Source: Deltaproteobacteria bacterium (GTDB taxonomy: Bacteria; Myxococcota; Myxococcia; Myxococcales; SZAS-1). Taken from it: DNA of 64,000 nt. Where the stretch lies: the NCBI GenBank assembly GCA_018266075.1, contig JAFEBB010000012.1:62001-126000 (forward strand). Reading direction: 5' to 3'. The number at the start of each line of letters is the position of its first letter. Within the stretch, counting starts at the first letter, position 1. Below the pieces are notes generated by a model that worked only from the letters and a program-made list of their open reading frames with translations, made no database searches and was not told the DNA's origin. Made by a program: the position numbers and the translations under genes. This document shows, one piece after another, positions 44,518 to 55,876 of the stretch.

Positions 44518-45933
44518 ATGCTGGAGCGGCCCAAGCGCGAGCAGCAGACCAGGCGTTGGATCCTGGGCGCTTTCCTCGCCGCGATCGTGGCGACCTTCCT
44601 GGCCACGAACGCGGTCGCCGTGCTCGGGATGAGGCGGTTGCAGCAGGGCAACCGCCTCATCGTCGAGGACGCGCTCAAGAGCATCGAGCTCGTCTCCCGC
44701 GTGGCCCTCGACATCGACCGGGCGCGGCTCTTCGTCGACGACCACATCCTGGAGAAGGACCGCTCCAAGATGCTGGATGACGAGCGGCGGCTGGCCGACG
44801 TGAACGCGGACTATGCCGCCACCGCGCGCGCGTACGAGCCCATCGCCCACTTCGCCGGCGAGCACGAGGCCTGGGAGCGACTTCAAGACGAGGTGACGAA
44901 GCTCCAGGCGCCGCTGGGGGTCGTGGTCGAGCGCTCGCGTCAGAACGACGATCAGGGCGCGTTCATCGGCATGGACGCGCTCAACGACCGGTTCGACGCC
45001 ATCGACCGCGACGTCGGCACGCTCATCGCCATCAACCGCGACGAGGCCCAGCGCCAGGTGGTGGAGGTGACGGCGCGGCAGCGCACGGAGCAGCTCTACC
45101 TGGCGCTCACCACGCTCCTGGGCCTCTGCGTCTCGGTGCTGCTCGTGACCCGCGTGAGCCGGCTCATCTCCCGGCGCGAGTCGGAGATCTGGAAGCTCGC
45201 CGAGGCCCTCGAGGAGCGAAACCGCGAGCTCGACTCGTTCGCCGGCCGGGTGGCGCACGACCTGCGCGGGCCGCTCACCGCAGTGAGCCTGGCGTCGGCG
45301 CGGCTCGCCGAGCAGGCGCGGGAGGATGGCGCGGCGGTGATCCTCAAGCGCGGCGTCTCGCGCATGGAGCTGCTCATCAACGACCTGCTCATGCTCTCGC
45401 GCATCGGCGGCGAGGTGCGCGACAACGTCTGCGAGCTCGACGCGGTGGCGGAGGCCGTGGTCGAAGAGCAGGCGCCCGCGCTCGTGGCCCAGGGTGGCGC
45501 GCTCCGCACCGCGCTCGCGCCCGCGTGGGTGCGCTGCACCGAGGGGCTCTTGCGACAGGTGCTCTGGAACCTCGTGGACAACGCCGTGAAGTATCGGCGC
45601 CCGGACGTGCCGCCCGAGGTCGCGCTGGAGGGCCGCGTGGTGGGGCGGGTCTACGAGCTGCGCGTGGTGGACAACGGCATGGGCATGAGCCCGGAGGACG
45701 CGCGCCGCGCCTTCGAGCCGTTCTTCCGCGCCGAGCGCAGCCGCGAGCTGGTGGGCACCGGCCTCGGGCTGGCCATCGTGAAGCGCGTGGTGGAGGCCCA
45801 CGGCGGCGAGGTGACGCTTGAGTCCAAGCTGGGCGTGGGATCGGCGTTCGTCATCCGCTTGCGATTGGCCAACACCGGGCCAAGGCCGGAAGCACCCGAG
45901 CCGGCGCCGCGGCCCGTGTCGCACGACGCCTAA
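44518..45933 (+). CDS. Membrane sensor histidine kinase
   Basis: A 471-residue kinase. A first helix (WILGAFLAAIVATFLATNA) precedes a helical periplasmic sensor (SIELVSRVALDIDRARLFVD), then a second helix (LALTTLLGLCVSVLLVTRV). H box AHDLRGPLTA with His near residue 247, N box NLVDNAVKYR, G1 VDNGMGMS and G2 GTGLGLAIVK are present. ATG 44518 is chosen; the frame is open from 44470. It ends on CTAA shared with the convergent alpha-2-macroglobulin operon. It may sense envelope state together with that operon; this rests on position only. Confidence 0.9.
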   Translation: MLERPKREQQTRRWILGAFLAAIVATFLATNAVAVLGMRRLQQGNRLIVEDALKSIELVSRVALDIDRARLFVDDHILEKDRSKMLDDERRLADVNADYAATARAYEPIAHFAGEHEAWERLQDEVTKLQAPLGVVVERSRQNDDQGAFIGMDALNDRFDAIDRDVGTLIAINRDEAQRQVVEVTARQRTEQLYLALTTLLGLCVSVLLVTRVSRLISRRESEIWKLAEALEERNRELDSFAGRVAHDLRGPLTAVSLASARLAEQAREDGAAVILKRGVSRMELLINDLLMLSRIGGEVRDNVCELDAVAEAVVEEQAPALVAQGGALRTALAPAWVRCTEGLLRQVLWNLVDNAVKYRRPDVPPEVALEGRVVGRVYELRVVDNGMGMSPEDARRAFEPFFRAERSRELVGTGLGLAIVKRVVEAHGGEVTLESKLGVGSAFVIRLRLANTGPRPEAPEPAPRPVSHDA

Positions 45934-48137
45934 CGATCAGCTCCATAGGCGCTCTGGAGCAGCGCGCGGTGATCGAGCGGGCCGCGCTTGGCGGCCTCGA
46001 GGTCCAGGCCCTCGCCGTGGCCGCGGCCGTGGCCGTGGAAGCGCACCTCGCTGCCCACCAGCTCCGCTGCGTCGGGACACGCGGGCAGGTGCAGCGGGTT
46101 GCGCAGCCGCTCGCAGGGGAGCTCGGCGCGATCCTCGAAGACGGCGTCGCCTTCGGCGCTGCGCACCGTGAAGTGCACACGCTCGCTCGAGAAGCCCAGC
46201 GTGAGCGGCGTGGCGCCCAACGCCTGGGCCACCTTCGGCAGCGCGCGGACCTCGCTCCACGGCTCGTCGCCGCCTTGCGAGAACGTGAGCCAGCCTGCGC
46301 TGGAGAGCGCGTCGTCGTTGAGCGCTGCGGCGTCGCCGGGCTCGGGCCGAAGCGTGCCGCGGAAGGCCTGGCAGTGGGTGGTGTCGCAGAGCGGCCGGCC
46401 AGGATGGCGGCTCGCGGCGGCGTTGTGCGCCACCGCGCGGGCGAGGGCGGCGCGCGGCTCACCGGCGAGCTGGGAATCTTCCGCAGCGAGCACGCCAGCC
46501 ACGTAGAGCCCGAGCCGCGTGCCGAAGATGAAGCTCGAGCCCTCGCGCGCGCGGCGCTGGCGCTCGGTCGGCGGCGGCGCGCCTTCGACCGGCACGTAGG
46601 CGGGCGGCGGGCTCCAGCGGAAGCTGCCGGCGTAGGGGCGGCCGTCCTTGGGTCCACCGGGAAAGCTCAGCATCCACGGCGCGCCGAGGCAGAGCGCTTC
46701 GCCGTCGCGCGTGAGCGCTTCCAGTTGCGTCGCCGCGCCAGCGAGACGTGGGTCGTCCTTCGTTGCCAACACGGAAATCCCCGGGCAGCGCGCCTCCACC
46801 TGCTCCGGCGGCACCAGCCCGAGCACCTGCACTTCGGCGTGGGAGAGCTCGTGCTGGCTGCGCAGCGGCTCGAGCACGTCGGCGAGCTCACCGGCGAAGC
46901 TGCGCGGCTGGCGACCCTTGCGCGCAATGACCACCACCACGTCCTGATCGATCGCGACGATGAAGCCGAGCTCGGCGCGCGAGTCGGCGTCGCGGACGGT
47001 GCCCGTCTTGAGCGCGACGCCCCGCAGCCTCGGCGACGCGGGCAGGCCCGAGAGCGTCCCGCGCTCGGCGTTGTGGCGAAGGATGTCGACGACGCCCGGA
47101 CTCGACGCGGCCAGCACGCGATACGCCTGGGCCAGCGCGAGCGGCGTGAGCTTCAAGGTCGGTCGAAGTCCGATGGCCTCGCTTCCGTCGGCCGGCAGCC
47201 GCGACAGCCCGAGCTTCTGCAGGATCGGTCCATACGCGCCGAGCTTGGGCATGTCGGGATCGCGCGCGGCCCAGTCGAGGAAGTAGCCATTGCACGAGCG
47301 GAGCAGGGCGGTCGGCAGATCCATCGTCCTCGGCGCGTCGTCGCCGCACGACCACTCCTCGCGCTTGGCGTCGACGGGCAGCACGGGCGCGTTCGCGAAC
47401 GCCGCCGCCGCGAGGAACGGCTTCAACGTCGAGCCGAAGGGCAGGGGCACGTTCGCGTCGCCCTGGAGCTGCAGGACCTCACCCGAGTGCCGGCTCAAGA
47501 CCACGAGCGCATCACCTTCGTTGAGCGGAATCGCGGCGAGCTCGTCGACGGTGAGCGGAATCCAGCGCGCGCCATCGGCGCATCGCCGCAGACGAACCGC
47601 GAGCACCCGGGGCAGGCCGTGATCCATCGGCGCGTTCGCGAGCAGCCGCGCGAGCGCGCTTCGTGCCGCGCGGTTGTCGAGCGAGCGCGACGACGCGAGC
47701 TGCCGCTTCGCCGCGCCCATCGACAAATACGCGCCGTCGTTCCAAGCGGCCAGCTCGCCGCTCTGCGACAGCGCGAAGCTCTCGTGAAAGAGCGCGTCGT
47801 CGCTCGCGGCGGGACACGCGGCCCAGAGCAGTTGATGCGCGAGCTCGTGTCGAAGCGCGACCACCATCTGCGTCGTGAGCGTCCCGTCGTGCGACGACCG
47901 AAGTTGGATGACGCCGATTCGGCTTGCCCCTGCGCGGTCCGGCGCGAGGTCTACGCCGCGCTCGATGCGAAGTCGCGGCGGCTTGGGCTGCGTTCCGGTG
48001 ACCGCGCTCCACGTCTCCGCGAGATCTCGCCAGCCCGCGTTGGCCTCGCGCGCGAGGGGCGCCGCAGGCTCGAGCCCGGGCGCGAGCTCGATCGACGGAG
48101 CGGCCGCGATGGCCAGCGCGAGCACCAGCGGCGACAT
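45930..48137 (-). CDS. DUF2300-type secreted protein with peptidase-, transpeptidase- and SpoIID-like parts
   Basis: A 735-residue secreted protein (signal MSPLVLALAIAAAPS), last of the operon; its ATG directly abuts the macroglobulin TAG. Three signatures are read. Residues 90-130: HELAH at 97-101 with HESFALSQSGE after it, like gluzincin metallopeptidases. Residues 230-410: Ser236-x-x-Lys239 (GSTLKPF), Ser281-Cys-Asn283 and Lys377-Thr-Gly (LKTGT), the triad of penicillin-binding transpeptidases. Residues 540-735: SpoIID-like CDTTHCQAF at 584-592 and a GHGRGHGEG end motif. In E. coli the equivalent gene is yfaQ (DUF2300), about 550 residues as I recall, so the N-terminal 190 look added. Substrates unproven; cell-wall work is likely. 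Confidence 0.8.
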   Translation of the reverse strand: MSPLVLALAIAAAPSIELAPGLEPAAPLAREANAGWRDLAETWSAVTGTQPKPPRLRIERGVDLAPDRAGASRIGVIQLRSSHDGTLTTQMVVALRHELAHQLLWAACPAASDDALFHESFALSQSGELAAWNDGAYLSMGAAKRQLASSRSLDNRAARSALARLLANAPMDHGLPRVLAVRLRRCADGARWIPLTVDELAAIPLNEGDALVVLSRHSGEVLQLQGDANVPLPFGSTLKPFLAAAAFANAPVLPVDAKREEWSCGDDAPRTMDLPTALLRSCNGYFLDWAARDPDMPKLGAYGPILQKLGLSRLPADGSEAIGLRPTLKLTPLALAQAYRVLAASSPGVVDILRHNAERGTLSGLPASPRLRGVALKTGTVRDADSRAELGFIVAIDQDVVVVIARKGRQPRSFAGELADVLEPLRSQHELSHAEVQVLGLVPPEQVEARCPGISVLATKDDPRLAGAATQLEALTRDGEALCLGAPWMLSFPGGPKDGRPYAGSFRWSPPPAYVPVEGAPPPTERQRRAREGSSFIFGTRLGLYVAGVLAAEDSQLAGEPRAALARAVAHNAAASRHPGRPLCDTTHCQAFRGTLRPEPGDAAALNDDALSSAGWLTFSQGGDEPWSEVRALPKVAQALGATPLTLGFSSERVHFTVRSAEGDAVFEDRAELPCERLRNPLHLPACPDAAELVGSEVRFHGHGRGHGEGLDLEAAKRGPLDHRALLQSAYGADR

Positions 48138-51100
48138 CTACTGCGCCGCGCTCGGGGCGATGGTGAGCGTCGCCGCGGCGGTGCGGCCGTGCACCGCCTG
48201 AGCGTACATGTCCTGCACGGTCGCGGGCGGCGCGTTGAAGGTGCCGGGGAACTGCGCGCGCATGACGTAGCCGATGTGCCGCGGCGTGTCGCTCCACCAC
48301 GTGGGCTCTTCGAAGAAGAACGTGGCGTGCTCCGGCGAGAGCGAGCGCCGCTTGAGCGCCTCGTGCGCGAGCGGCAGGTTCATGGGCGGTCCGCGATAGG
48401 TCTTGTCATCGATGAGCGGCGTGAAGCCCGCGGGCACCGGATCGTCGACCACGTAGTACGCCGAGCGGAACGACTTCGCGGCGTCGCCGTCGTGCGCGTT
48501 CAACGTCAGCTCCACGTACACGTCCTCGCCCTGGGCAATCGAGTCGCCGGCCTTGATCGGCGCGAGCGCGCCATTGCGCAGCGCGAAGTAGGTGCGCTCG
48601 AGCGACATGCCGTTTGCGTCTGCGGTCACCGACGCGAGCGGCGTGCGCACCCGCGCCTTGATCGACGCGACGCCTTCGAAGTTTCCAACATGGACATGCG
48701 TCACCGTGGGCGCGAGCTTGCCCGCGAGCCCGAGCCCGCGCGGCTCCAGCTCGACCGCCGTGCCCGCGGCATCGGCAGTGACCGGCGGCATGGCCTTGAG
48801 CTCCTTCGCGTCGCGCTCGATGAGCCAGAGGCTGTGCAGGATCGCCGTCGAGCGATCGAACGTGGACAGGTCGCGGCCATTGGCGAGCAGTTGCACGATG
48901 CGCGCGCGGGCCTGGGCCACATCGAGCGAGCCGTACGACGCCGCGTGCGTGAGGATGGCGGTCATGCCGATGTCGCGCAGCGGGTAGCTCCAGAAGAAGT
49001 CCGCGTGCGGCGTGTAGACGGCGTTGGAGAGCAGCGCCCGCTGCGCTTCGCCCACGAGCGTTGCCACCTTGGCCTTGTAGTCGGGCTCGTTGGCGACGCC
49101 GCTCTCTTCGGCCGCGAGCACCGCCATCGCGAGCGCGTAGGTGTCGCCGGGCTGCAGCTTGTCGACCAGCGCGCGGGCCCGCGGCGCCTCCCTCGCGCCA
49201 TTGAGCCGCGCGAGCACGTACGCGCGCGTGGGCTCGAGCGAGGGCGGCACGTCCTGCTTCGCGAGCCACTCGGTCGACTCGCGGATGCGCACGTCTTCGC
49301 GTGGGACGATGCCCGCCTCGACGGCGTAGCTCAGCCCATCGAGCGCGATCATGGTCAGCGCGGGATCCGGCTGCGAGTAGCCGTTGAACCAGGTGAAGCC
49401 GCCGCCCTTAACCTCCAGGTTAAGAATTCGCTGGACCCCTTGGGCGGCGCGGCTCTGCGCCTCGGCAAGCAGCGCGCGGCTCTGCGGGTCGAGTTGCGCG
49501 AGCGCGCCCGACTTCTCGAGCGTGCGGTACAGCGCGATGTTCGGGACGGTGCTCGACGTCAGCTGCTCCAGGCAGCCATATGGATACTCGAGCAGGTCTT
49601 CGACATTGGTCAGCGCGACCTCGACCGTCGTCGGCTGCAGCGTGAGCTCGCTCGACATCACCACGGCGCCCGGCGGCAGCTTGAGATCCAGATCGCCGCC
49701 CTTCCAGGCCACGGCGCTCACCGTCTCTTCGATCGTCGCGGGCCGCACGGGCAGGTGCTTCACGTCGCGCAGCGGCTCCTTGCCCTGCAAGAGGAACGAG
49801 ACGTCCGCTTTGCCGTCGCTGCCGGCCTTGAGCTCGAAGGGAAAGACCTTCTCCGAGCCGCTCGTGAGCGAGACGTCCGCGACGGCTGCGTTGATCTGCG
49901 CCGCGCCCGCACCCGACACGTTGAGCTTGTAGCTCACGTTGCCCTGGTTCACCGCCACGCGCAGGCTGCCGGTCGCAGCGTCGCCCGCGCGGAGGAACTG
50001 GGGCAGCGAGGCGACGAGATTTACCGCGCCGCGGCTCGCGAACTCGCCCGTGCCCTCGCCGAAGCGGCCCGACGCGTCGGCGGCGACAGCGGTCACCGTC
50101 CACAGCGTCTGATTGGAGGGCAGGGTGAAGGTGATGCGCGCGTGGCCATCGGCGTCGGTGCGCACGTCGGGATCCCAGAACGCGGTGTCGCGCTCCTTCT
50201 CGTTGGGCTTGTGCGTGGGCGGCTTGATGGCCGCGAACTCGGTGTGCGGCAGCAGCCCGAGCTTGCGCGCGAGGACCTCACCGTAGCCGTAGCCCTGAAA
50301 CTCCGCGCTCTGGAAGGTGGCGACGTTGTTGCGGCTGAGCGGATAGAAGAAGTCGACGATGCCCGGGCGGAACTCGCTCTGGATCGCGTACACGGCCTTG
50401 TCCACGACGCCCACCGACACAGCCGCTTGCACGCCGCGTCCGCGCGAGTCGGTGACGGTGAGATCGATCGACTGCTCGCCGAGCGGCGTGGCCTCGGCGC
50501 GCATCGGCTGCACGAGGACGTTGAGCGTGCGTGTGCGCGGCACGATTCGGAACGACGTGGTCCGCTCTTCCCAGCGGCCGCTGCTCGTCGGGTACGCGAT
50601 CGACGCGTAGACAGCGCTGCCGAAGCGCTCTTCGATCGGGAATCGCTGCACGAGCGTGGTGCCGCTCACGTTCACGAGTTGCGTGGAGTAGATGCCGCTG
50701 CCGGAGAGCGTGATCCACACCGGGCCCTCGTTGCGGCCGTCGGCACCCCAGCTCTGCGGAAAGAGCGCCGCGAGCTCTGCGGTCTGGCCAGGTTCGAGCG
50801 CGCCGCCGAGTGCCTGCAATGTGAGATTTGCCACGCGCGCCACGGCCTCGCCCTTCTCGCCGAGCACGAGCGCGCTCTCTTCGCCGGTCCACGGGTGGCC
50901 GTTCTTGTCGGTGAGCGTGACGCGAGCGATGAGCGAGCCGACGTTCGTCGTTGGCAGCTTGCCGCGCCAGATGCCCTGGTCATCGGTGGTGAAGGTCTCG
51001 CTGCTGAGCGTGCGCTCGTGCTCGTCGGCGTCGCGCAGCACGAGGTCGAGCTTGCCCGCGATGCTCGGCGAGGCCTTGCCGGACAGCGTGGTCGAGCGGA

Positions 51101-52832
51101 TCGAGAGCTGCGCGTCGGAGCCCTGCTTGAGCACCTTCGCGCTCGGGACGATCGCGCCGAGCACCTCGGTCGGCGAGAGGAAGAGCGTGCGCGCGACGTT
51201 GGCGAAGGTGCCCTGGTCGTCACGCGCGCGGACGGTGACCGTGTACTTCCACGCGCGCCGCTCGTCGCCGGGCTTGAGCGCGGGCACGTCGATCTTGATG
51301 TCCGCCTCGCCGTTGTCGTCGAGCTTGGCCGCGCTCTGCCACGGGTCTTCGCCGTTCGTGCCGCGCGCCTCGAGCGAGGAGAAGAGCCGCTCGGGCGCGG
51401 ACAGGCCACCTTCCTTCGACGCCTCGGTGCCGTACGTCACGTTGCTGCCCTTGGCGCCGAGCCCGGAGTCATCGACCCACGCCGGCGCGTCGAGCAGCGA
51501 GCGATAGAGGAAGTACTCGTACGCGGTGTTCTTGGCCGCGCCGCCGGCGTAGCGCCGCCCGCGGACGTGCAGGGAGATGCTCCCGCCGGGCTGCACCGTC
51601 TCCTGATCGCCCACCAGCTCCACATAGAACGTGGGCTTCACGTACTCCTGCACGCGCAGCTCGGCGTTCTCGTGCCGGCCATCGAGCGTAGCGTCGAGTC
51701 GGAGCACGCCGGTGTCGAGGTCCTTGGGCACGTCGAGCGTGCCGTGGAAGCAACCGAACTCATCGACGCTCGCCTTGGTTGTAACTGTTCGGTTATCTGC
51801 GGTGAGGAGGTCGACGCTCACGCTGCGATTCTTCGGCGTGAACAAGCGCGCGAGGAACGAGTCCGGCTGGCGCACCACGCCTCGGAAGCCGACCTTGTCG
51901 CCGGGGCGATAGATGGGCCGGTCCGCGTAGATGAACGCGTCGGGCACGATCGCGAGCGTGGAGTAGAAGTCGGTGTCGACGACGGCGAGGTCGTTGTTCG
52001 CGCGCGCGGTGAGGAGCACGCGCGGCTCGTTGGTCTTGAGGTGCAGCTCGCCGTGCGCGTCGGTGGCGCCGCTCGGGCCCTTCGCCGCGCCCAGGTACAT
52101 CTGCACCTGCGCGCCGCTCACGGGCTTCATGTCCGGGCCGGCGACGCGGACCAGGATCTCGCCGTCGGACTGCTTGGCCTGCACCTTCAAGTCGGTCACG
52201 GAGAGCACGACCTGGCCCTCGACCTTGCCCTGCACGACCTGCAGCACGTACAGGCCCGCGGGCAGCGGCGCGAGGTTCACGCGGCGCTCCTGGTAGCCGC
52301 CCTCGCCGCCGAAGAACGCGGTGAACCCGGGGACGTTGAAGTCCTTCACATCGCCGCCAAGGTCGAGGTTGAGCCACTCGCGGTGGATGAGCTTCATGCC
52401 CTCGGGCAGGTTCACGAGCTTCTCGGGGCCCTCCTCGAGCTTGGACACGGGCTTCGACTCCGCGCTCGGCGTGCGCTTGGGGAAGCCGCCAATCGACGTG
52501 CGCCACTCGGCGCCGAGCGCGTTCATCAGGAACGTGCCCGGCTCGCGGATGGCGTTCACGCCCTTGGCCGCGTAGCGACCCGGGTTGGCGATGGTGGTCG
52601 GCTGCTCGTAGGCGCGGCGCAGGTTGCTCTGCGCGAGGATGAACGGCTCGAGCGGATCCGGCTGGAGCACGCGCAGCTCCACCGGCTCGCGGCCCTCGAA
52701 GGCCACGTCGACGGCCGCCGACTCCTGCGTGCCATAGCTGCGCGGCACGGTGATGTAGAGCGGCTTGGCGAAGGCAGAAGCGCTTGCCCATGCAACGATT
52801 GCGAACGCAACGATTCGAGTCGCGATCTTCAT
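48138..52832 (-). CDS. Bacterial alpha-2-macroglobulin with CLEQ thioester
   Basis: A 1564-residue periplasmic protein with a signal peptide (MKIATRIVAFAIVAWASASAFA) and GGGAGGG before ATG 52832. It has the macroglobulin layout: MG domains with FIYADRPIYRPGDKVGFRG near residue 300, then FWDPDVRTDADGHARITFTLP, then the thioester domain. Cys1087-Leu-Glu-Gln1090 (YPYGCLEQLTS) gives a reactive thioester, followed by alpha-alpha toroid repeats (GYSQPDPALTMIALDGLSYA). Eukaryotic and bacterial relatives trap proteases that cleave a bait region. The clusters of this type (yfaS) are distinct from yfhM-pbpC. Two TAACC-N4-GGTTA dyads lie in it. Confidence 0.95.
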   Translation of the reverse strand: MKIATRIVAFAIVAWASASAFAKPLYITVPRSYGTQESAAVDVAFEGREPVELRVLQPDPLEPFILAQSNLRRAYEQPTTIANPGRYAAKGVNAIREPGTFLMNALGAEWRTSIGGFPKRTPSAESKPVSKLEEGPEKLVNLPEGMKLIHREWLNLDLGGDVKDFNVPGFTAFFGGEGGYQERRVNLAPLPAGLYVLQVVQGKVEGQVVLSVTDLKVQAKQSDGEILVRVAGPDMKPVSGAQVQMYLGAAKGPSGATDAHGELHLKTNEPRVLLTARANNDLAVVDTDFYSTLAIVPDAFIYADRPIYRPGDKVGFRGVVRQPDSFLARLFTPKNRSVSVDLLTADNRTVTTKASVDEFGCFHGTLDVPKDLDTGVLRLDATLDGRHENAELRVQEYVKPTFYVELVGDQETVQPGGSISLHVRGRRYAGGAAKNTAYEYFLYRSLLDAPAWVDDSGLGAKGSNVTYGTEASKEGGLSAPERLFSSLEARGTNGEDPWQSAAKLDDNGEADIKIDVPALKPGDERRAWKYTVTVRARDDQGTFANVARTLFLSPTEVLGAIVPSAKVLKQGSDAQLSIRSTTLSGKASPSIAGKLDLVLRDADEHERTLSSETFTTDDQGIWRGKLPTTNVGSLIARVTLTDKNGHPWTGEESALVLGEKGEAVARVANLTLQALGGALEPGQTAELAALFPQSWGADGRNEGPVWITLSGSGIYSTQLVNVSGTTLVQRFPIEERFGSAVYASIAYPTSSGRWEERTTSFRIVPRTRTLNVLVQPMRAEATPLGEQSIDLTVTDSRGRGVQAAVSVGVVDKAVYAIQSEFRPGIVDFFYPLSRNNVATFQSAEFQGYGYGEVLARKLGLLPHTEFAAIKPPTHKPNEKERDTAFWDPDVRTDADGHARITFTLPSNQTLWTVTAVAADASGRFGEGTGEFASRGAVNLVASLPQFLRAGDAATGSLRVAVNQGNVSYKLNVSGAGAAQINAAVADVSLTSGSEKVFPFELKAGSDGKADVSFLLQGKEPLRDVKHLPVRPATIEETVSAVAWKGGDLDLKLPPGAVVMSSELTLQPTTVEVALTNVEDLLEYPYGCLEQLTSSTVPNIALYRTLEKSGALAQLDPQSRALLAEAQSRAAQGVQRILNLEVKGGGFTWFNGYSQPDPALTMIALDGLSYAVEAGIVPREDVRIRESTEWLAKQDVPPSLEPTRAYVLARLNGAREAPRARALVDKLQPGDTYALAMAVLAAEESGVANEPDYKAKVATLVGEAQRALLSNAVYTPHADFFWSYPLRDIGMTAILTHAASYGSLDVAQARARIVQLLANGRDLSTFDRSTAILHSLWLIERDAKELKAMPPVTADAAGTAVELEPRGLGLAGKLAPTVTHVHVGNFEGVASIKARVRTPLASVTADANGMSLERTYFALRNGALAPIKAGDSIAQGEDVYVELTLNAHDGDAAKSFRSAYYVVDDPVPAGFTPLIDDKTYRGPPMNLPLAHEALKRRSLSPEHATFFFEEPTWWSDTPRHIGYVMRAQFPGTFNAPPATVQDMYAQAVHGRTAAATLTIAPSAAQ
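49409..49422. repeat. TAACC-N4-GGTTA dyad, copy 4 (exact)
   Basis: TAACCTCCAGGTTA lies in the macroglobulin gene. On the coding strand: CTT AAC CTG GAG GTT AAG. Confidence 0.55.
51782..51795. repeat. TAACC-N4-GGTTA dyad, copy 5 (one mismatch)
   Basis: TAACTGTTCGGTTA lies in the macroglobulin gene. On the coding strand: GAT AAC CGA ACA GTT ACA, several rare codons. Confidence 0.5.
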
Positions 52833-54415
52833 GAGTGGAACCCTCCCGCGACGAGCGCGTTGCCCTGCGCTGTGCCGGTCAATCCGAACGTCGGCAGCTC
52901 CTCGAGCTTCTGGCGCGCGGCGTCGATCTCCTTGGGCACCGCGGGCGCGCGGCCGGCGGCTTGCGACTCGGCGTTCCACGCGTCGAGCGTGACGCCCGAG
53001 AGCAGCGCGCCGAGCTGAATCGAAAGTCCGACTGACTGCGGCTGGCGCAGGCCGGCGACCACCGGCGCCGCGGAATTGGCCAGCGCGGGCTGCTTGCCGT
53101 CGCAGGTGCGCTGGATGCGATCGAGCAGCGCCCCGGAGGATGCGTAAACCAATTGGTTACAAATCGTCCCGGTGCGCATGGTGTTGTTGCCGCTGAAGGC
53201 CTGCTTGAGCGACTCGGCGTCTTCCTTCTTCGACCAGAGCAGCGCGACGTCCGTGTTCGCCTTCGCATCGCCGTGCGGCACCCAGACGATGGCCACCTGG
53301 CGCGTCACCGTGGGCGCGTTCGACTTGCCGGCGAAGAAGGTCTTCAGCGTCTCCGGGTCGAGCGTCTTGGGGAGCTTGAGCTGCGCGGTGAGCAGCACCG
53401 GCGCGTCGACGGGGATCGCCTTCAGCAGATCGTCCGAGAGCGCGGCCACGTCCACGCGGCCTGGCGTCGCGAGCTCGCCGGCGATGCCGCGCGGCACGAG
53501 CTTGTCGCCCTCCACGCCGAACGCGAGCCGCGGCTGCGGGCCAAGCCCCATCAGGCTGGTGAGCACCACCGCGTCGTGGCCCAGTCCCGGTGTGGCGATG
53601 GTGAGCTCGAGGTCCGCGCCGGGCGTGCGCGTCGCCGCGGGGATCTTGGCGCAGAGGCCCTGGAGCACGGCCGTGGGGTTCTTCGCGATGGCGAGCCCGC
53701 TCGGCCCGAGCGACGCGTACATCGCCTGGTTCGCGAGCACCCAGCGCTGGATCTCGAAGTGGCGCGTGACCGGCGGCGCGCCGCCGTCGGTGGGCGCGGG
53801 CGCGTCACCCGGGCACGCCTCGGCGAGCTGCACGCCGTGGCCCGCGGCCTTGGTCAGCGCCTCGAACGCGGCCTGCGCGCCGGCGCCCGGCTGCGGCACG
53901 AGGACGACCGGCGTGCTGGTGGCCTGGCTGCCGCTGAACCACACGATGCGCGAGGGCGCGTCGAGCAGCTGGCTGGCGACGTAGTCGATGACCTGGCCCT
54001 TGAACGACGCGGCCACGTCCTCGCCCTTGGTACCCCAGAAGCCGGCCCACGGCCCCACGAAGCCCTGACCGAGCGGCTGCTGGAGCGCATCCTGGAGCCA
54101 CGCGTTCTGCTTGATGGCGCCGTGGAGCTTGGCCGGCTCGTACACATCGACGATGTACGAGGGCACGCTCGGCGGCGCGGTGACGTCGATCTCCAGCTTC
54201 TGCGGCGCGGCGGGGATCGCGTTCGCTGCGGGCGTCTGCACGCTGGTGCCGTTTGCGCCTGGCGCAGGCGGGTGGTAGCCCGCCGGCGGCGTGAGCTTCG
54301 TGATCGGCGAGACGTCCTTCGGCCCTTCGACGTCCTTCAGCGCGTAGATGAGCGGCACCGCGAGCACCGCGATCACCACCAGCGCGATGGCCGTCTTGCG
54401 ATCAGTGGGGTTCAT
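52829..54415 (-). CDS. DUF2138-like membrane-anchored protein
   Basis: A 528-residue protein with one N-terminal helix (KTAIALVVIAVLAVPLIYAL), a Pro/Ala-rich spacer, then a large periplasmic part (YIVDVYEPAKLHGAIKQNAW, LDAPSRIVWFSGSQATSTPV). By order and length it corresponds to E. coli yfaA (DUF2138, about 560 residues); the sequence match is my recollection, not a search. Three Cys pairs may bond (AEACPGD, GLCAKI, ICNQLV). Its TGA overlaps the macroglobulin ATG (ATGA), so it is co-made and probably anchors the complex. A dyad of the TAACC family lies in codons for CNQLVY. Confidence 0.7.
   Translation of the reverse strand: MNPTDRKTAIALVVIAVLAVPLIYALKDVEGPKDVSPITKLTPPAGYHPPAPGANGTSVQTPAANAIPAAPQKLEIDVTAPPSVPSYIVDVYEPAKLHGAIKQNAWLQDALQQPLGQGFVGPWAGFWGTKGEDVAASFKGQVIDYVASQLLDAPSRIVWFSGSQATSTPVVLVPQPGAGAQAAFEALTKAAGHGVQLAEACPGDAPAPTDGGAPPVTRHFEIQRWVLANQAMYASLGPSGLAIAKNPTAVLQGLCAKIPAATRTPGADLELTIATPGLGHDAVVLTSLMGLGPQPRLAFGVEGDKLVPRGIAGELATPGRVDVAALSDDLLKAIPVDAPVLLTAQLKLPKTLDPETLKTFFAGKSNAPTVTRQVAIVWVPHGDAKANTDVALLWSKKEDAESLKQAFSGNNTMRTGTICNQLVYASSGALLDRIQRTCDGKQPALANSAAPVVAGLRQPQSVGLSIQLGALLSGVTLDAWNAESQAAGRAPAVPKEIDAARQKLEELPTFGLTGTAQGNALVAGGFHS
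53146..53159. repeat. TAACC-N4-GGTTA dyad, copy 6 (one mismatch)
   Basis: AAACCAATTGGTTA lies in the DUF2138-like gene. On the coding strand: TGT AAC CAA TTG GTT TAC. Its centre AACCAATTGGTT is a perfect 12-bp palindrome. Confidence 0.5.
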
Positions 54416-54974
54416 GCGCCCACTCCTTGAGTCGATAGAAGCCGAGGAAGGCCGGGTTCTCCGGCACCGGGCGCCACTCGAGCGGCGCATTCACTGCCAG
54501 TGAAGTCAGGCTGCCGCCGCGCAGCGCCGCGCCGGGCTCGCCCGGGTGGTAGAGCACCATCGCGCCGTGCGCGGGATCGCGGTCGTGCACCACGAGCATG
54601 AGGTGAAAGACCTCGGCGCCCGGCTCGCCCTGGCGAAACGCGACGAGATCGCCGGTCTGCACCTGCGCGCGAGCCTCGGCCCCGCGGCCCAGCAGCGCGA
54701 AGTTGCCGGCGAGCAGGTTCTCCGCGTCGGCGAAGTCGCTCGGCTTGCCGAAGCGATCGCGCCAGAGCGGCGTCGCGCGCGCGGGCTCGAGCTGCTTCCA
54801 CGCCTCGCGATAGACGAAGCGCACGAAGCCCGCGCAGTCGCGCTGCTCGGGCGTCCACGCGGGATCGAAGTGATCCACCTGCGCGAGCGCGTGGGCAGCG
54901 ATGGCCTGTCGCACGAGCGCAGGGTTCGCCGGCGGGGCGCCGAGCGCCAGAAGCAGCAAGGGCAGGGCGCGCAT
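54402..54974 (-). CDS. DUF1175-family protein (YfaT-like)
   Basis: A 190-residue exported protein (signal [15 protein letters not shown]). It matches DUF1175 well: RDCAGFVRFVYREAWKQLEP, TGDLVAFRQGEPGAEVFHLML, MVLYHPGEPGAALRGG and a final WRPVPENPAFLGFYRL. The Cys in RDCAGF followed by the His in VFHLML resembles an NlpC/P60-type Cys-His pair, so a papain-like hydrolase is possible. The next gene starts 14 bases before its end; its own ATG overlaps the DUF2135 stop (TGATG). Confidence 0.85.
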   Translation of the reverse strand: MRALPLLLLALGAPPANPALVRQAIAAHALAQVDHFDPAWTPEQRDCAGFVRFVYREAWKQLEPARATPLWRDRFGKPSDFADAENLLAGNFALLGRGAEARAQVQTGDLVAFRQGEPGAEVFHLMLVVHDRDPAHGAMVLYHPGEPGAALRGGSLTSLAVNAPLEWRPVPENPAFLGFYRLKEWAHEPH

Positions 54975-55876
54975 CAGTCGCCCATCCCGTAATCGCCGAC
55001 GGAGCTCTCGCCCTTCTGCACGGCGGCCGCGGCGTCGTCGAGGTTCTTGGGCCAACCGGCGGTGGGCGCGGGGTCTTGGCTGGGCACGTAGATCTGGCCG
55101 TGCTCGCCGTCGAGGACGTTGACCCACGCGAGCACGCGCGTGGTGCCGCGCGTCGCCAGGGGGATCTGCACGCGCCGCTTCACCTCCTGCGGCGTGCCCT
55201 CGAAGAGCGTGACGTTCAGCGTGGCGAGCGTGTGCGCCTTGTCGCCGCTGGGCCAGTAGTTGGTGGCCACCAGGAACACGCCCTTGGGCGGCGCGCGGTG
55301 GACGTAGAGGTACGGGCCGTACGCCGGCTGGTCGAAGTCACCGCCTTGCTCGTTCAAATAGAAGGTGCCGCCCGACGGGCTCGAGGTGTTGGCCCAGTAC
55401 ACATGATACATTTTGGTTACATCGATGGTGCCATCGGCCTTGGTGCTCGCGTCGGTGGGCTCGTAGATGTGGAGGTCGGTGTAGACGCCGTCGGTGTCGC
55501 TGGTAAGCACGGCCTTCATTCCGACTGGTGGGATCTGCGCGTAGCTGGTGGCCTGGGCGCTGCCGGTGCCGCCCTTGTTGGTGGCGCTCACGGTGACGAC
55601 GTTCTTGCCCGAGGCGGCGGGGAACGCGCGCGAGAACTTCCCGTCGGCGGTGCGCATCAGGTAGCGGTCGCCGTTGATGGACACGACGATGGGATCGACG
55701 GTCTTGTCGCTGCACTCGCCGGCGACAGTGAGCATGCGGCCCACGGTCCAGCCGCCGGGCGGCGAGGTGAGGGTGACGGTGGGCGCCCTCGTGCCCTGGC
55801 CGATGGGCACGCCCACCTGCCTCTCGGTGGGCGGCGGTTGGACCGCCAGCGCGAGCGTGAGCACGACGTGGAGCAC
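54974..55876 (-). CDS. DUF2135 protein with Ig-like domain (YfaP-like)
   Basis: A 300-residue exported protein, first of the operon. Start is GTG 55876 with GGAGG just upstream, giving a compact signal peptide ([13 protein letters not shown]). An Ig-like domain ([30 protein letters not shown]; key start [10 protein letters not shown]) precedes DUF2135: [53 protein letters not shown]2135 is the C-terminal part of E. coli yfaP and of von Willebrand-type partners. In E. coli the order is different, so genes have been shuffled within a conserved set. Confidence 0.85.
55406..55419. repeat. TAACC-N4-GGTTA dyad, weak copy 7
   Basis: ATACATTTTGGTTA lies in the DUF2135 gene; one half matches fully and the other poorly. 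It is an AT-rich patch in GC-rich sequence. Confidence 0.3.

Follow-up and report, generated by a model that had tools for sequence, protein, structure and literature searches.

A conserved three-domain protein encoded beside a thioester alpha-2-macroglobulin in Myxococcota suggests a cell-wall repair arm of a bacterial 'innate immune' system

Three domains with conserved active sites

The window analyzed in this work, a stretch of 64,000 nucleotides of contig JAFEBB010000012.1 from a deltaproteobacterium of the Myxococcota, carries on its minus strand (45930..48137) a gene for a 735-residue protein in which an N-terminal gluzincin-fold domain is joined to a YfaQ/MagC-like core, made up of a penicillin-binding protein (PBP)-type transpeptidase domain and a SpoIID-like region. 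Our results suggest that this protein, encoded beside an alpha-2-macroglobulin (A2M), represents a cell-wall repair arm of a bacterial 'innate immune' system. An earlier note, made from the sequence alone, had given the exact extent of the polypeptide, without its strand, and had read it as a protein with three activities. The three-domain protein does exist, it is well conserved, and its coherence exceeds what that note could know: three domains of the predicted kinds were recovered, with invariant catalytic residues, and their interpretation as three activities is partly supported by the alignments and models described below.

The open reading frame starts with ATG directly 3' of the macroglobulin stop codon, and its codon usage is that of a coding sequence. 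The polypeptide is predicted to be secreted to the periplasm; a hydrophobic N-terminus, compatible with a Sec signal peptide, is common to all full-length orthologues. An AlphaFold2 model built on an alignment of 28 sequences reached a predicted local distance difference test (pLDDT) score of 85 and a predicted template modelling (pTM) score of 0.75. When the whole protein was compared with Pfam, PF00905 (E 0.002) and PF08486 (E 0.028) each scored below their curated cut-offs; a scan of the protein against NCBIfam gave no match, and PF10062 (DUF2300) was matched neither in this protein nor among 40 related genomes. The three-domain architecture, recovered through homologues and the model, is secure.

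Residue conservation was assessed in an alignment of 40 Myxococcota sequences, which share 42-51% identity with the window protein and at least 39% in any pair. In this alignment 125 of the 735 columns are invariant, and they include H97, E98, H101, E119, S236, K239, S281, N283, K377, G379, E553, H578, C584, H588, C589 and H707. The enrichment of these 16 catalytic or metal-binding residues among the invariant columns (p ~2e-13, or ~2e-11 when matched by residue type) is only an indicative measure, the sequences being related to one another and the residues having been picked as motifs. All ten cysteines of the protein are likewise invariant, as expected of an exported, disulfide-bonded or metal-binding protein.

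The first domain (residues 20-204; 47526..48080, minus strand) is predicted, from its invariant HExxH and downstream glutamate and from its modelled fold, to be a gluzincin metallopeptidase-like domain. Residues 1-201 modelled alone gave a pLDDT of 91 and a pTM of 0.88, and among the VIA matches listed all were M1-type gluzincins, the best being ERAP2 278-496 (Z 10.6, 3.5 Å over 171 residues); this Z lies above the quoted VIA noise level of 7-8 and denotes a likeness of fold at 12% identity. The HELAH motif noticed earlier is present at residues 97-101 (47835..47849) and sits, in the model, in a gluzincin peptidase fold and not in a non-peptidase one. The later glutamate of that claim is best placed at E119, within LFHE (47781..47783), the likely third zinc ligand. 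M1 enzymes follow the pattern HExxH-x18-E, and the spacing here, with E119 18 residues past H101, is near it. The domain shares the fold (window residues 10-199) and the HExxH...E arrangement with the catalytic domain of M1 aminopeptidases such as ERAP2 and tricorn factor F3, but at ~12-14% identity and with no counterpart, as read from the translation, of the GxMEN exopeptidase motif before its HExxH. When this domain was compared with PDB sequences, the best entries were helical-repeat designs and a fragment of HERC2, plausibly by chance, and an IrrE zinc hydrolase came up at E 0.98.

The second domain (residues 206-432; 46842..47522, minus strand) is of the PBP transpeptidase type. Scanned alone it passes the PF00905 cut-off (E 2e-5, 24.3 bits against 22.1), and residues 206-426 of the model adopt a PBP transpeptidase fold, with PBP4 of E. 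faecalis as a structural match (Z 21.7, 2.7 Å over 211 residues); the PBP assignment of the earlier note is in this way supported by the model. The triad it had listed occurs in order and at the places it gave: S236-x-x-K239 (47421..47432), invariant in 40 of 40 sequences and aligned with the GSxxKPF motif of PBP1A; S281-C-N283 (47289..47297), also invariant as SxN; and K377-T-G379 (47001..47009), in which the lysine and glycine are present in all 40 sequences and the middle residue is threonine in 38 and serine in 2. Compared with PDB entries at the level of sequence, a profile of the domain had no match at E <= 0.1; what carries the identity of the domain is its fold, its PF00905 match when scanned alone and a sister protein described below. 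The domain is compact (~225 residues), shorter than the PBP domains it matched, and OXA-57 appeared among the Foldseek matches (TM 0.60 on the target), which would suit a sensor that recognizes beta-lactams, or a hydrolase, in place of a transpeptidase. We consider this the least probable of the alternatives, given the SxN motif, the best structural matches being PBPs (Z ~21), the fusion to SpoIID and the setting in an A2M operon.

The remainder of the protein (residues 433-735; 45933..46841, minus strand) is a SpoIID-like lytic-transglycosylase region. A profile of 21 sequences searched against the PDB found, at E <= 1, exactly three sequences, all of them SpoIID, the best at 3e-4; PF08486 on this region alone scored 17.2 bits, under the gathering score of 23. 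In the HMMER alignment E553 (46479..46481) corresponds to the catalytic E101 of SpoIID from Clostridioides difficile (5i1t), and H578 together with C584, H588 and C589 of C584-DTT-H588-C589 (46371..46406) corresponds to its zinc ligands H134, C140, H145 and C146, all of them invariant in the 40 sequences; the roles of E101 and of the zinc-site residues have been tested in the C. difficile enzyme (PMC6221140). The proposal of a SpoIID-like domain is therefore upheld at the level of the alignment, and the CDTTHC on which it drew is found at residues 584-589. Its second motif, GHGxGHG, exists in the window protein but does not hold for the family: H703 varies among the 40 sequences, and the conserved form is GxGxGHGxG (residues 702-710; 46008..46034), which aligns with GYGHGVG of SpoIID. 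The C. difficile protein is a single-function sporulation enzyme to which neither a PBP nor a peptidase is fused, in contrast to the fusion found in the window.

Operon and macroglobulin

On the minus strand the gene is the last of five, preceded in order by genes for DUF2135, DUF1175, a 528-residue protein and the macroglobulin, and this order is kept in the full-length relatives with flanks long enough to show it. The macroglobulin neighbour pointed out earlier adjoins the gene in the window and stands directly upstream of it in 12 of 12 divergent genomes examined. This A2M (1564 residues; 48138..52832), identified through the Pfam families MG2, A2M, TED and bMG10 and through synteny, carries the thioester motif C-L-E-Q at residues 1087-1090 (49563..49574). 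CxEQ is present in 40 of 40 homologous A2M proteins of the fetched loci and lacking in the A2M of the Citrobacter yfa operon.

The five-gene operon is related to two envelope-defence operons, yfa of E. coli and mag of P. aeruginosa. In the literature, thioester A2Ms are the partners of PBP1c, and the A2Ms of the six-gene operons have no thioester (PMC5764988). Macroglobulins of the latter, type II kind (MagD/YfaS) lack CxEQ, and the window A2M differs from them in having C-L-E-Q. As read from its genes, the window operon joins features of both kinds, that is, a thioester and a multi-gene yfa/mag-like setting. The pairing of PBP1c with a type I (thioester) A2M resembles the window in that a thioester A2M stands beside a PBP; PBP1c is, however, a bifunctional glycosyltransferase-transpeptidase, unlike the window protein. 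The window genome has five A2M loci, six other PF00905 loci and two other PF08486 loci, and no detectable match to BiPBP_C (PBP1c).

Relation to YfaQ, MagC and a sister protein

E. coli YfaQ (b2226, annotated as 'tandem DUF2300') shares with the window protein the order of a transpeptidase-like followed by a SpoIID-like part, the A2M, DUF1175 and DUF2135 partners and predicted export. Its transpeptidase part matched the window-family profile over the SxxK-to-SxN stretch (E 2e-5); its SpoIID and HExxH parts, each taken alone, were below significance against the same profile. The two proteins differ in that YfaQ has SCG for SxN, KTW for KTG and no SpoIID zinc site, and in that its HExxH (HEYLH, 520-524) is C-terminal whereas that of the window protein is N-terminal. 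This HEYLH lies within the best conserved stretch of 25 residues, in which the E. coli and Citrobacter proteins agree at 92%, compared with 50% overall. The P. aeruginosa MagC (PA4490), likewise the product of an A2M operon tied to envelope defence, is likened to the window protein by its operon, and its partner MagD is a type II A2M devoid of the thioester that the window A2M carries as C-L-E-Q.

A second type of operon in some Myxococcota comprises DUF1175, a thioester A2M and DUF2135 and, in four genomes, a sister protein of ~600-670 residues (L090 11738-13738; also L091, L092 and L099). Like the window protein, the sister has canonical SxxK/SCN/KTG and SpoIID Glu/CDxTHC/GHG sites and is encoded after DUF1175, A2M and DUF2135; unlike it, it has no HExxH domain. 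Both of its Pfam matches are far over the cut-offs (PF00905 3e-24; PF08486 2e-23, 83 bits). It aligned with the window protein over residues 207-711 (probability 98.5%, E 1.5e-15) and, as two colinear blocks, with YfaQ (E 2e-4 and 1e-3). These alignments indicate that YfaQ and the window family have the transpeptidase-SpoIID core in common, the gluzincin domain being an extra of the window family. A myxobacterial addition of the peptidase part, as suggested earlier, is partly supported by the existence, in related genomes, of this core protein lacking HExxH. The description of E. coli yfaQ as shorter is, however, too simple, as YfaQ possesses a strongly conserved HExxH of its own at the C-terminus.

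We found the idea attractive that one HExxH domain might have been circularly permuted between the N-terminus of the window protein and the C-terminus of YfaQ, but treat it as a conjecture: hhalign gave E 0.09 over 15 columns, and the profile-to-sequence score was not above that of shuffles keeping HEYLH (z 0.7-0.9). In E. coli yfaQ (L035 2149-3798) the PF10062 stretches cover residues 84-205, in the transpeptidase part, and 412-532, in the HExxH part. An internal duplication, as the name 'tandem DUF2300' would have it, was rejected, for the two stretches show no mutual similarity, and the Pfam model thus seems to merge unrelated regions as an artefact. Further YfaQ relatives were sought by tblastn among plasmids, which returned Escherichia and Citrobacter only, and among viral contigs, which returned none.

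The pair of transpeptidase-like and SpoIID-like parts in E. coli YfaQ was described in 2025, and the available portion of that source contains, in its account of YfaQ, no mention of a metallopeptidase part (PMC12282094). The belief that the combination had not been described consequently fails for this pair and stands for the three-domain form, which we did not find described. Within the open-licence literature searched, the three-domain form and its operon with a thioester macroglobulin appear to be undescribed. What seems to be new is that an N-terminal gluzincin domain is present and intact, that the catalytic residues are conserved throughout and that the protein is paired with a macroglobulin bearing a thioester.

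Proposed function

We favour, with a probability of about 0.55, the reading that the window protein is a periplasmic multi-enzyme of the YfaQ/MagC kind, with gluzincin, PBP-type and SpoIID-type activities, that edits and reseals peptidoglycan during attack on the envelope. The trigger would be a breach of the envelope by an attacker's proteases and effectors that degrade the wall; the macroglobulin would trap the proteases, the SpoIID domain would clip damaged or denuded glycan ends, and the transpeptidase domain would re-crosslink or trim stem peptides. The gluzincin domain may cleave peptide, either in a wall cross-link or in a partner such as the macroglobulin, and the nature of this substrate (cross-link peptides, macroglobulin or another partner) is the least certain step of the mechanism.

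We infer this role from the intact active sites together with the literature on yfaQ, mag and PBP1c. E. coli cells deleted for yfaQ are wider, and their profile clusters with those of the mepS and mepK deletions (PMC12282094). The mag operon protects P. aeruginosa from peptidoglycan-targeting effectors of the type VI secretion system (T6SS) (PMC12663445), and a partnership of protease trapping and wall repair was proposed earlier for A2M and PBP1c (PMC5764988). Several points weigh against this reading: it was through magD, not magC, that protection from T6SS effectors was demonstrated (PMC12663445); stable MagC-MagD complexes were not seen in P. aeruginosa, and in the running text deletion of magC had no pronounced effect on MagD (both PMC5764988); the gluzincin domain matches no family at the sequence level, none of Pfam being above its cut-off; the literature searched holds no biochemically characterized member of the myxobacterial three-domain family; and the role would be carried over, by analogy, from distant operons with a type II A2M.

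The gluzincin domain might instead act on the neighbouring macroglobulin, through bait-region or other processing, or on the proteins it traps, so that the window protein would be an A2M activator and a wall enzyme combined. The strict adjacency of the gene to that for A2M fits this idea, as do the processing of P. aeruginosa MagD from 165 to 100 kDa and the legend of Figure 6 in PMC5764988, by which the 100-kDa form is absent in the magC deletion mutant. In the body of that paper the deletion has no pronounced effect and it is MagB and MagE that are implicated, and the legend, being contradicted by the text, may be in error. Moreover, the sister protein of other A2M operons lacks the gluzincin domain entirely, and we regard this alternative as unlikely.

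Many Myxococcota are predatory, and the occurrence of the protein in this phylum, with glycan- and peptide-cutting modules combined, would also suit a secreted offensive lysin, a predation enzyme digesting prey walls by several activities in one chain. We find this very unlikely, as the place of the gene beside a macroglobulin that traps proteases, in one operon, is fixed, a YfaQ-like core is also found in the non-predatory E. coli, and a transpeptidase would rebuild a wall rather than destroy it. It is more improbable still that the protein is a scaffold of pseudo-enzymes whose domains bind wall components without catalysis. The degenerate sites of enterobacterial YfaQ (SCG, KTW, no SpoIID zinc site) indicate that decay of the core is possible, but in the Myxococcota family all the catalytic residues of the three domains are invariant, which is unexpected for a scaffold.

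If the peptidoglycan-editing reading is taken further, a single exported enzyme of three reactions (gluzincin cleavage, DD-transpeptidation and lytic transglycosylation) could be the repair arm of an immune operon with a thioester A2M. HExxH modules would then have been attached to the same transpeptidase-SpoIID core in two separate events, at one end in myxobacteria and at the other in enterobacteria, or one module would have changed ends; we offer this as a tentative possibility, well short of even odds.

In the puzzle of bacterial macroglobulins, where mag protects against wall-targeting T6SS effectors by a mechanism yet to be described, MagC/YfaQ is a piece still to be placed. As all predicted active sites are intact in the myxobacterial family, the repair idea is directly testable there with active-site mutants. 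The family also bridges systems that the literature has kept separate, the thioester A2M with PBP1c and the type II A2M with the multi-gene mag operon. Furthermore, our analysis predicts that the enterobacterial protein, which is the one so far used for phenotyping, partly lost its catalytic core and kept the C-terminal HExxH in its best conserved stretch.

Distribution, reduced relatives and other genes of the operon

A genome scan yielded 34 loci, of which 29 hold relatives of the 735-residue protein, nearly all myxobacterial, and a search of the phylum gave matches in 102 of 195 genomes, some of them merely weak and SpoIID-like. The record of locus L001 is titled Comamonas sp. KCTC 72670; its sequence and operon order group with Myxococcus, and the title is probably wrong.

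Two relatives (L079 8675-9715 and L080 7296-8786) are cut down to the SpoIID part and keep its active-site residues, suggesting that the SpoIID domain works as an independent enzyme; no macroglobulin was recognized within their fetched flanks. L080 retains 'SRHSGE', a remnant of the transpeptidase start. Broken second copies, containing the SpoIID part only and with a split frame or an in-frame TAG, occur at L081 10858-11684 and L082 4940-5488, in genomes that also contain an intact copy. The window genome has a further DUF1175/DUF2135 locus (L089, G000:C20:45500-62500), which encodes a large protein devoid of CxEQ and alongside which no YfaQ-like gene was recognized.

Upstream of the macroglobulin, all on the minus strand, lie the three other genes of the operon. 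The 528-residue protein (52829..54415), in a MagA/YfaA-like position, has no Pfam match and is kept in place in 35 other loci; homology to YfaA/DUF2138 was considered and dropped, the hhalign comparison with YfaA not being significant. DUF2135 (54974..55876) is YfaP-like (PF09906 E 4e-5; blastp to E. coli YfaP 5e-11). DUF1175 (54402..54974), YfaT/MagB-like and NlpC/P60-like (PF06672 E 4e-26, PF00877 4e-4), is a clear homologue of E. coli YfaT (hhalign 98.7%, E 3e-16). A classification of 2023 lists DUF1175 as inactive (PMC10318531). In this DUF1175 protein Cys47, preceded by Asp, is found in 30 of 30 covering rows and His124 in 31 of 31, and both the DC and the H recur in E. coli YfaT; the conservation of Cys47 and His124 calls the 'inactive' label into question.

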